From the NCBI RefSeq assembly GCF_000337815.1, contig NZ_AOLN01000018.1, positions 682,001-746,000 on the forward strand: a stretch of DNA of 64,000 bases, read 5' to 3'. The stretch comes from Haloferax mucosum ATCC BAA-1512. Lineage in GTDB: Archaea; Halobacteriota; Halobacteria; Halobacteriales; Haloferacaceae. This document shows positions 53,077 through 55,601 of this stretch, one piece after another. The notes under the pieces were generated by a model. That model was not told where the DNA came from and did no database searches. It saw only the letters and a list, made by a program, of their open reading frames with translations. The first letter of the stretch is position 1, and every line of letters starts with the position of its first letter. The translations under genes were made by a program, and so were the position numbers.

Positions 53077-53099
53077 AGTCCGCGCTCCCCGATTTGAAC
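53077..53099. repeat. Partial duplicate of the tRNA-Tyr 3' end
   Basis: AGTCCGCGCTCCCCGATTTG and the following AAC repeat, with one mismatch, the plus-strand sequence of the tRNA-Tyr 3' region at 53195-53217, 118 bp apart. A copied tRNA 3' end of this kind is what integrative elements leave at the far end of their insertion (attachment-site remnant). The intervening segment is too short to hold an element now. Confidence 0.65.
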
Positions 53100-53191: not shown

Positions 53192-53196
53192 TTCAG

Positions 53197-53270
53197 TCCG
53201 CTCTCCCCGATTTGAACGGGGGACAAGCCGATCTACAGTCGGCTGCTCTGCCAGGCTGAGCTAAGAGCGG
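53197..53270 (-). tRNA. tRNA-Tyr (GTA)
   Basis: The minus strand reads acceptor CCGCTCT, D-arm GCTCAGCCTGGCAGAGC, anticodon stem GCCGA / TCGGC around the loop CTGTAGA with anticodon GTA, T-arm CCCCG-TTCAAAT-CGGGG, acceptor AGAGCGG and discriminator A: 74 nt. CCA is not encoded. No intron is seen. Confidence 0.93.
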
Positions 53271-53328: not shown

Positions 53329-53345
53329 ACGTGTGTCACACACGT
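53329..53345. promoter_or_regulatory. Palindrome upstream of the cdrL promoter
   Basis: ACGTGTGTCACACACGT is a perfect palindrome with 8-bp arms and one central base, ending about 8 nt before the TATA-like TTAAAATA at 53353-53360. Position just upstream of the BRE/TATA region suggests a regulator-binding site for cdrL, perhaps autoregulation. The TATA box is 24-31 nt before ATG 53384. Confidence 0.6.
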
Positions 53346-53383: not shown

Positions 53384-53998
53384 ATGAGTAAAATCACGTT
53401 CCGCGCCGACGACGCCCTCGTCGAGCGATTGGACCGCCTCGATACGTCAAAAAGCGAGGTGATGCGTGAGGCGCTTCGACACTACCTCGACGAGTTGGAA
53501 CGTGACGACGCGGTGTCTGATACGTCAGAACACGACCCCAACGACGGGACCGACGGCGGACTCGACGGTGCGCTCTCCACTCGCGTCGAGGAACTCGTTG
53601 ACGCTCGCCTGAACGAGCAACTCCCCACACTCGTCGAGGAGACGCTCGGCACCCGCTCGCAGCGCCGTCAGACACCAGCCGATCTGAACGTCAACATCAA
53701 CGTCGATGGTTCAGCCGACGAAAGCGGCGTAAACACGTCTCTCGACGACAGTACGGCATCGAATACGGAACGTAAGACACCGAGTGAAATCGAACGCGCG
53801 GAGCCGGAAACACAGCCCACAGATTGTAGTCAATGTGGCGAATCTGTCGGAAGCGACCACGTATACTGTCCGAATTGCGGTGAGAAAATGTCGCACCGAG
53901 CGTTTTGTGAGTGCGGCGAAGAATTACGGACCGATTGGGCGTTCTGTCCCGACTGCGGTCGTCGGACGCCAGCGGCCGACGTACTCGACCGCGGATAA
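53384..53998 (+). CDS. cdrL: Cell-division regulator CdrL-like (RHH plus zinc ribbons)
   Basis: 204 residues from ATG 53384. N-terminal ribbon-helix-helix domain (KITFRADDALVERLDRLDTSKSEVMREALRHYL, residues about 3-37), an acidic linker, then two zinc-ribbon units at the C-terminus (CSQCGESVGSDHVYCPNCGEKM; CECGEELRTDWAFCPDCGRR). Such a long RHH protein lies upstream of cdrS-ftsZ2 in haloarchaea (CdrL), where it has been described as a regulator of the cdrS-ftsZ2 unit. It is expressed from its own leaderless promoter. Confidence 0.8.
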   Translation: MSKITFRADDALVERLDRLDTSKSEVMREALRHYLDELERDDAVSDTSEHDPNDGTDGGLDGALSTRVEELVDARLNEQLPTLVEETLGTRSQRRQTPADLNVNINVDGSADESGVNTSLDDSTASNTERKTPSEIERAEPETQPTDCSQCGESVGSDHVYCPNCGEKMSHRAFCECGEELRTDWAFCPDCGRRTPAADVLDRG

Positions 53999-54037: not shown

Positions 54038-54195
54038 GTCTTACAATTGCCGTTACATTTATATTCCATCCCTCTGTGGTGATTATCGCGTAAGACGGTT
54101 GTCTTACAGCCACCCAACGGCGGGCCGGTTCCCGGTTCCGTCCGTTGGTCTTAGGGTGTAAGACACTCGCACTCGCGTGCGGCGCACCGTCTTAC
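54038..54195. promoter_or_regulatory. Array of GTCTTAC/GTAAGAC half-sites before cdrS-ftsZ2
   Basis: Between cdrL and cdrS the sequence holds GTCTTAC (54038-54044), GTAAGAC (54090-54096) and GTCTTAC (54101-54107) with a 4-bp spacer making GTAAGAC-GGTT-GTCTTAC, GTCTTAG (54148-54154; 6 of 7) and GTAAGAC (54158-54164) with a 3-bp spacer in the opposite arrangement, and GTCTTAC (54189-54195). Six half-sites within about 160 bp directly upstream of the cdrS start look like operators for a dimeric or higher-order RHH regulator, CdrL or CdrS being the obvious candidates. Confidence 0.72.
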
Positions 54196-54210
54196 CGGGG
54201 GAATGTAAAC

Positions 54211-54396
54211 ATGGAGCGTGTGACACTACGAATTCCGAAGCAGCAAATCGAGGAGGTCGAGCGAATGGTCGAAACGGGAGAATTCCCGAACCGGTCCGAA
54301 GCCATTCGGTCTGCCGTCCGCGATATGCTCAACGAACAGACGAGCGACAAGCGACAGCGTGAATCTACCAGCAAGCGCGGCTGGGCAAAGGTGTAA
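54211..54396 (+). CDS. cdrS: Cell-division transcription regulator CdrS (short RHH protein)
   Basis: 61 residues from ATG 54211 ([20 protein letters not shown]). A single ribbon-helix-helix domain: beta strand VTLRIP, helix [15 protein letters not shown], helix [17 protein letters not shown], plus a short basic tail. In haloarchaea this small protein is cotranscribed with ftsZ2 and acts as a global regulator of cell division genes. The cdrS stop is 2 nt before the ftsZ2 ATG. The start codon is preceded by GGGGGAATGTAAAC. The upstream region carries the half-site array. Confidence 0.88.
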
Positions 54397-54398
54397 CA

Positions 54399-55601
54399 AT
54401 GCAGGATATCGTTCGTGAGGCGATGGAACGTGACGAGGCCGAACGGAAGACGCAGTCGTCGCTCGAAGACAGCGACGACCAGTTCGGTGACCCGCGTATC
54501 GTCATCGTTGGCTGTGGTGGTGCCGGGAACAATACCATCAACCGCCTCTACAACATTGGTGTCGAAGGTGCCGACACGGTCGCCATCAACACCGACAAGC
54601 AACACCTGAAGATGATCGAAGCGGACACCAAGATTCTCGTCGGGAAATCCCTGACGCAGGGTCTCGGTGCCGGTGGCGACCCCTCGATGGGTGAACGTGC
54701 CACCGAGATGGCACAGGGAACCGTCAAGGACGTCCTCGGCGACGCAGACCTCGTGTTCGTCACGGCGGGGATGGGTGGTGGCACCGGTACTGGTGCGGCG
54801 CCTGTCGTCGCAAAAATCGCAAAAGAACAGGGAGCAATCGTCGTTGGGATGGTCTCGACTCCGTTCAACGTCGAGCGCGCCCGGACGGTCAAGGCCGAAG
54901 AAGGACTCGAGAACCTCCGCAACGAGGCCGACTCCATCATCGTCCTCGACAACAACCGCCTCCTCGACTACGTCCCGAACCTGCCCATCGGCAAGGCGTT
55001 CTCGGTCATGGACCAGATTATCGCCGAAACCGTCAAGGGTATCTCGGAGACGATTACCCAACCGTCGCTCATCAACCTCGACTACGCCGACATGTCTACC
55101 ATCATGAACCAAGGCGGCGTCGCGGTGATGCTCGTCGGCGAGACCCAAGACAAGAACAAAACGCAGGAAGTGGTCAACGACGCGATGAACCACCCGCTTC
55201 TCGACGTAGACTACCGCGGTGCGTCCGGTGGTCTCGTCCACATTACGGGCGGTCCTGACCTCACACTGAAGGAGGCAGAGGGGATTGCAAGCAATATTAC
55301 CGAACGACTGGAGGCCGCCGCGAACGTCATCTGGGGCGCTCGTATCCAGGACGAGTACAAAGGGAAAGTCCGCGTCATGGCTATCATGACTGGTGTTCAG
55401 TCCGCACAGGTCCTCGGCCCGACGACCCAAAAGCAGGCCGATAAGTCCCGCCAGAGCATCCAGTCTGGAGACACCCAAGAACAGCTCCAGAGTTCGGAAT
55501 TCGACAGCTCACAGCGTGTCGAGACGTCGCAGAGTGGCACGTGGTCCGACGGCGGCCGCGACGAAGTCGAGAAGAACAACGGTCTCGACGTCATCCGGTA
55601 A
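54399..55601 (+). CDS. ftsZ2: Cell-division protein FtsZ2
   Basis: 400 residues from ATG 54399. N-terminal nucleotide-binding [17 protein letters not shown], tubulin signature [13 protein letters not shown] (about residue 123), T7 loop [19 protein letters not shown], then a Gln/Ser-rich linker and C-terminal tail [14 protein letters not shown]. FtsZ2 polymerises at midcell with FtsZ1 and drives constriction in haloarchaea. It lies directly after cdrS and is followed by a T5 tract (ACTTTTTG, about 55661-55668) that may terminate the operon. Confidence 0.95.

Follow-up and report, generated by a model that had tools for sequence, protein, structure and literature searches.

The cdrL–cdrS–ftsZ2 locus and its heptamer array

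The window analysed here is a stretch of 64,000 nt from Haloferax mucosum ATCC BAA-1512, and all coordinates refer to it. It contains cdrL (53384..53998, plus strand), cdrS (54211..54396, plus) and ftsZ2 (54399..55601, plus), the latter two forming an operon. CdrL, the candidate ligand of the array described below, matches Pfam RHH_1, CdrL_M (PF24252) and DZR, which correspond to an RHH domain at residues 4–36, a CdrL_M middle region and a C-terminal double zinc ribbon, and its N-terminal strand M-S/T-K-I/V-T-F-R is near-invariant across loci. CdrS is a 61-aa RHH regulator (Pfam RHH_1) and ftsZ2 matches Pfam Tubulin and FtsZ_C. Just upstream of cdrL lies a 23-nt direct repeat (53077–53099 and 53195–53217, 96%, 118 nt apart), which repeats the 3' part of the tRNA-Tyr gene (53196–53270, minus strand) and looks like an attachment-site remnant.

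The cdrL stop codon ends at 53998 and the cdrS ATG is at 54211, leaving a gap of 212 nt which holds five exact copies of GTCTTAC or its complement GTAAGAC and one single-mismatch copy, as counted in an earlier note made from the sequence. Site 1 (GTCTTAC, 54038..54044, plus) lies 5' of the TATA element of the cdrS-ftsZ2 promoter (TTTATATT, 54058..54065, plus) and 52 nt before a core palindrome, GTAAGAC-GGTT-GTCTTAC (54090..54107, unstranded), whose left and right halves are site 2 (GTAAGAC, 54090–54096, minus) and site 3 (GTCTTAC, 54101–54107, plus), 11 bp apart centre to centre. The 4-bp spacer of this pair was described correctly in the earlier note, but “near-perfect” was too weak a term as the palindrome is perfect. 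Site 4 (GTAAGAC, 54158..54164, minus) is an exact match, and site 5 (GTCTTAC, 54189..54195, plus) is found 22 nt before the cdrS ATG. The mismatched copy (GTCTTAG, 54148–54154) does form the noted pair with a 3-bp spacer (54148–54164), but this pair is specific to the window because the 54148 copy is not conserved; a copy with one mismatch or fewer adjoins the 54158-type site in only 1 of 75 loci with that site, and it was rejected as a member of the array.

The exact heptamer is expected 4.7 times per 64 kb from shuffled sequence and therefore about 0.016 times in 212 nt, giving a Poisson probability of ~8e-12 for five or more exact copies. Exact GTAAGAC-N0-25-GTCTTAC pairs occur in the array and nowhere else in the 3.37-Mb H. 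mucosum genome, and heptamer pairs in the opposite order were absent from the whole genome.

Two further features were observed within the gap. The spacer between the palindrome and site 4 (54112–54150) can form a hairpin, CCAACGG/CCGTTGG, which in relatives reads CCGACGG/CCGTCGG, a compensatory change, and which is absent from the class-level consensus fold. Site 5 is followed without a gap by GTCTTACCGGGGGAAT, ahead of the cdrS start codon (54189–54204); CGGGGGA is invariant here in 32 aligned loci, GGGGAAT is widespread elsewhere, and the region may be a translation signal.

Conservation of the array across Halobacteria

The conservation check proposed in the earlier note was made on 111 distinct cdrS upstream regions, from 80 genome records across the class, 30 further genomes and the window. 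GTCTTAC/GTAAGAC was the most widespread heptamer, with 490 copies and representation in 111/111 regions. Layout counts are based on the 106 loci with a recognisable palindrome. The palindrome halves were 11 bp apart centre to centre in 79 of these, 12 bp in 18, 9–10 bp in 8 and 13 bp in 1, hence all 106 carry short symmetric subsites approximately one helical turn apart (9–13 bp), the form of an RHH operator; the short inverted sites of RHH type described in the earlier note are thus supported and conserved class-wide. Site 1 was a consensus-type heptamer in 88 loci, with the 52-nt spacing to the palindrome in 61, and was absent or degenerate in 18, while sites 4 and 5 were present in 79 and 102 loci, respectively.

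The palindrome starts 29–30 nt 3' of the TATA centre in 99/106 loci. Archaeal transcription usually starts 25–27 nt below the TATA element, and this rigid geometry would place the palindrome over the transcription start, predicted at ~54086–54088 in the window. If the start is at 25–27 nt as predicted, the palindrome covers approximately +3 to +22, with one site upstream of the TATA element and the others in the predicted 5' UTR.

Across 292 Halobacteria genomes, the pattern GTAAGAC-N3-7-GTCTTAC (chance expectation ~0.02 per genome) was detected in 280, as one copy each with a single exception, and the reversed pattern, used as a control, turned up in just a handful of the genomes. Genome G239 is the sole genome among the 292 with two exact palindromes. 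Wherever coordinates of both were listed and compared, the palindrome was located just upstream of cdrS. Twelve genomes were without the exact pattern; all 11 of those examined keep a variant, with a 2-bp spacer, a GTCATAC half, one changed base or tandem direct repeats (GTATGAC-N3-GTAAGAC-N3-GTATGAC), and in the twelfth (G229) the assembly lacks a clear cdrS. Chance or a low-complexity repeat as the origin of the array is ruled out by the counts, the genome uniqueness and the class-wide conservation.

CdrS targets carry a different box

ChIP-seq of CdrS in Haloferax volcanii yielded 18 sites, including ftsZ1, dacZ, psmB and hisB, according to Liao et al. (PMC8406309). The CdrS box used here comes from our comparison of target promoters and was not copied from that paper. 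The ftsZ1 promoters of 25/29 haloarchaea carry GTCWGAC, in many cases arranged as GTCNGAC-N4-GTCNGAC immediately 5' of TATA; the CdrS heptamer is also present at dacZ and psmB. In the eight Haloferax-type genomes scanned, the exact GTCNGAC-N4-GTCNGAC pair gave two to six matches per genome and the reversed control pattern gave zero. Both ftsZ1 and hisB were among the matches checked, the latter being a published target (PMC8406309) outside the set used to build the pattern. The CdrS boxes and the proposed CdrL boxes thus have a common 7-4-7 layout with a different heptamer.

No GTCNGAC was found in the gap of the window, and GTCWGAC was present in 10/111 haloarchaeal arrays (250 nt examined). 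GTCTGAC is kept between sites 4 and 5 in nine loci (L023, L043, L055, L063, L064, L066, L071, L119 and L120), several of them Natrialbales, perhaps as a retained CdrS input.

The CdrS box is frequent at the promoter of cdrL itself, with GTCWGAC in 48/81 and GTCNGAC in 64/81 haloarchaea (110 nt upstream), mostly 48–65 nt before the ATG, whereas the next commonest odd palindrome of that form occurs in 13/81. A second copy lies 11 bp upstream of 27/49 of these boxes, and a promoter element resembling GAAGATTGAAATA recurs directly downstream of the boxes (L003–L082). In the window the corresponding sequence is GTCACAC (53335..53341, plus; -49 from the cdrL ATG), one mismatch from GTCWGAC, in the position occupied by an exact CdrS box in most relatives. 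CdrL autoregulation via its own promoter was rejected, GTCTTAC being rare there (5/81 in 110 nt).

A different, possibly ancestral array in non-haloarchaeal relatives

The comparison was extended to 30 cdrS-ftsZ2 loci from elsewhere in the phylum. Among the genomes sampled, CdrL_M turned up only in Halobacteria; inspection of six non-haloarchaeal loci revealed no upstream CdrL gene, and GTCTTAC did not recur as a heptamer in the 30 loci. Instead, 28/30 loci together carry 62 copies of GTCWGAC, placed as in the haloarchaea between TATA and the start codon, in the ~110 nt preceding cdrS (L129–L139, L166–L185). Distances between exact copies were multiples of 11 in 40/46 cases, and the same held for 83/85 offsets measured downstream, up to 60 nt, to GTCNGAC-like copies. 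Because these loci are relatives of one another, the counts are not independent, but the phase stays constant over spacings of 11, 22, 33, 44 and 55. The simplest reading suggested by these arrays is that CdrS directly autoregulates in methanogen-type relatives, with a later switch to CdrL boxes in haloarchaea.

CdrL as the probable ligand of the array

The only reproducible ChIP-seq site of CdrL in Halobacterium salinarum was the region upstream of cdrS-ftsZ2 (Darnell et al., PMC7439475), with the same gene order and position as the array. CdrL is favoured as the ligand because one paired site per genome matches this single site, and the genome-wide search for paired sites suggested in the earlier note agrees with it, the sole exact pair being the array. 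In vivo binding is published for Halobacterium only, which limits its extension to Haloferax. We put the probability at about 75% that the array is a CdrL operator at the cdrS-ftsZ2 promoter. We infer that CdrL touches the heptamers themselves, and likewise the dimer stoichiometry, cooperativity and repression; no published CdrL binding motif was found in the literature searched. Each heptamer (consensus GTCWTAC/GTAWGAC) would be the subsite of one RHH dimer, and the central palindrome would hold a pair of dimers separated by one helical turn, just 3' of TATA and across the transcription start. Additional dimers on the flanking sites, of which one is 5' of TATA and two are in the 5' UTR, would increase occupancy. 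The position of the palindrome suggests repression as the main effect of CdrL, through a block to initiation or early elongation.

The earlier note proposed both CdrL and CdrS as natural ligands. The CdrL half of this claim gains from the ChIP-seq result and the one-per-genome palindrome, but the CdrS half does not hold up against the GTCNGAC boxes at CdrS targets. An autoregulatory switch, as was also proposed, is incorrect in its simple form here because CdrS targets use GTCNGAC and the CdrS ChIP-seq sites listed in PMC8406309 do not include its own promoter; the array would rather represent cross-regulation of cdrS-ftsZ2 by CdrL. CdrS was rejected as the main ligand on the same box sequence and site list.

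Direct binding by CdrS, alone or together with CdrL, nevertheless has points in its favour, as the two heptamers are one base apart (GTCTGAC and GTCTTAC), CdrS-type heptamers are present in the 10 haloarchaeal arrays above, almost always at a single place between sites 4 and 5, and CdrS-type arrays occupy the equivalent place in the non-haloarchaeal loci. We consider it improbable, however, since the array is not among the 18 CdrS sites (PMC8406309) and every CdrS target checked has GTCNGAC-type boxes, never GTCTTAC. The absence of the cdrS promoter from that list is not proof because the ChIP used overexpressed, tagged CdrS. Little credence is likewise given to the repeats acting in RNA, where 5' UTR sites 2 and 5 and sites 3 and 4 would form nested pairs controlling translation or decay. 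The predicted 5' UTR of the window (~125 nt) does fold far better than shuffles (z = -5.25), the consensus fold pairs sites 2:5 and 3:4, the order and orientation of sites 2–5 are mostly kept, and the operon is reportedly under post-transcriptional control in Halobacterium (PMC8303175). Yet there are no compensatory changes inside the paired heptamers (covariation term -0.36), the pair is broken in 10/14 variants of site 4 with a single change, direct repeats stand in for the palindrome at some loci, and Rfam gave no match above threshold to a known RNA family, riboswitches included. The commonest variants of site 4 (GTATGAC, GTAAAAC and GTACGAC) are also seen at site 1, which is upstream of the promoter and not transcribed from it. 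DNA recognition explains both sites where RNA pairing explains only transcribed ones, and RNA pairing is disfavoured as the main cause.

The direction of regulation is less firm, and we lean towards repression by CdrL on the position of the palindrome. Archaeal regulators bound at the transcription start usually repress, as stated in PMC8406309, and a palindrome at the start therefore suggests repression. In the rival reading, CdrL bound to the array would be an activator of cdrS-ftsZ2 that works productively from site 1, upstream of TATA, and CdrS and CdrL would form a positive loop. The CdrS boxes of ftsZ1 are also just upstream of TATA, like site 1, and CdrS seems to be an activator there in Haloferax (PMC8406309). 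In Halobacterium, deletion of cdrS lowers ftsZ2 (PMC7439475). If CdrS acts on cdrL, as the CdrS box at many cdrL promoters would allow, activation by CdrL accounts for this fall no less well than repression does. The deletion may however be polar, and the cdrL deletion strain carried second-site mutations (PMC7439475). Activation is the less likely reading in our view, given that conservation is strongest in the palindrome, at the usual place of archaeal repression, and not in site 1, which is absent or degenerate in some loci.

The CdrS boxes at cdrL promoters predict CdrS control of cdrL. Counting against this, cdrL is not named among the Haloferax CdrS sites in PMC8406309, and the examined Haloferax cdrL promoters mostly show one good heptamer only. 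A conserved two-gene loop, with CdrS on the cdrL promoter (GTCNGAC just upstream of TATA) and CdrL on cdrS-ftsZ2 (GTCTTAC boxes over the start), would have replaced an ancestral, direct CdrS autoregulation via a one-base heptamer change at an unchanged position; we hold this tentatively, at slightly under even odds. If true, it would provide delayed feedback suited to division timing, at the heart of haloarchaeal division control.

Overall, the array is most probably a class-wide CdrL operator, as opposed to an autoregulatory array of CdrS and CdrL, and relatives would retain an older version that uses CdrS. A cis code with one box for CdrS and another for CdrL, each at set positions of the ftsZ1, ftsZ2 and cdrL promoters, would explain the single CdrL target and predict a feedback loop between two RHH regulators. 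It would also be a case of a regulator replaced at an essential promoter by a one-base change repeated across an array.

Comparison with known systems

The closest system is CdrL at cdrS-ftsZ2 of H. salinarum (PMC7439475), with an identical locus and gene order, where binding has been shown for CdrL alone. No binding sequence is given in the text of that study; the heptamer array with its sites, spacings and overall geometry, its conservation across the class and its single paired site per genome are described here, together with the different box at CdrS targets. The H. volcanii CdrS motif (PMC8406309) is similar in belonging to an RHH regulator of division genes and in its symmetric 7-4-7 layout, as derived here, but the CdrS box is GTCNGAC and lies upstream of TATA at ftsZ1, whereas the array uses GTCTTAC and is centred on the transcription start.

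Beyond the haloarchaea, NikR is an RHH protein whose operator, GTATGA-N16-TCATAC (PMC7055735), has a half-site corresponding to the commonest variant of the array, GTATGAC/GTCATAC, and CdrS shows a weak sequence match to NikR. NikR is however a nickel-responsive tetramer with widely spaced half-sites (PMC7055735), in contrast to the 4-bp spacer of the array core, and its metal-binding C-terminal domain is absent here, CdrL having zinc ribbons. The Saccharolobus factor aCcr1, mentioned in PMC7617429, is likewise an archaeal RHH factor controlling a division gene. Unlike CdrL and CdrS it acts on the ESCRT/CdvA system, and the comparison made here is by role.
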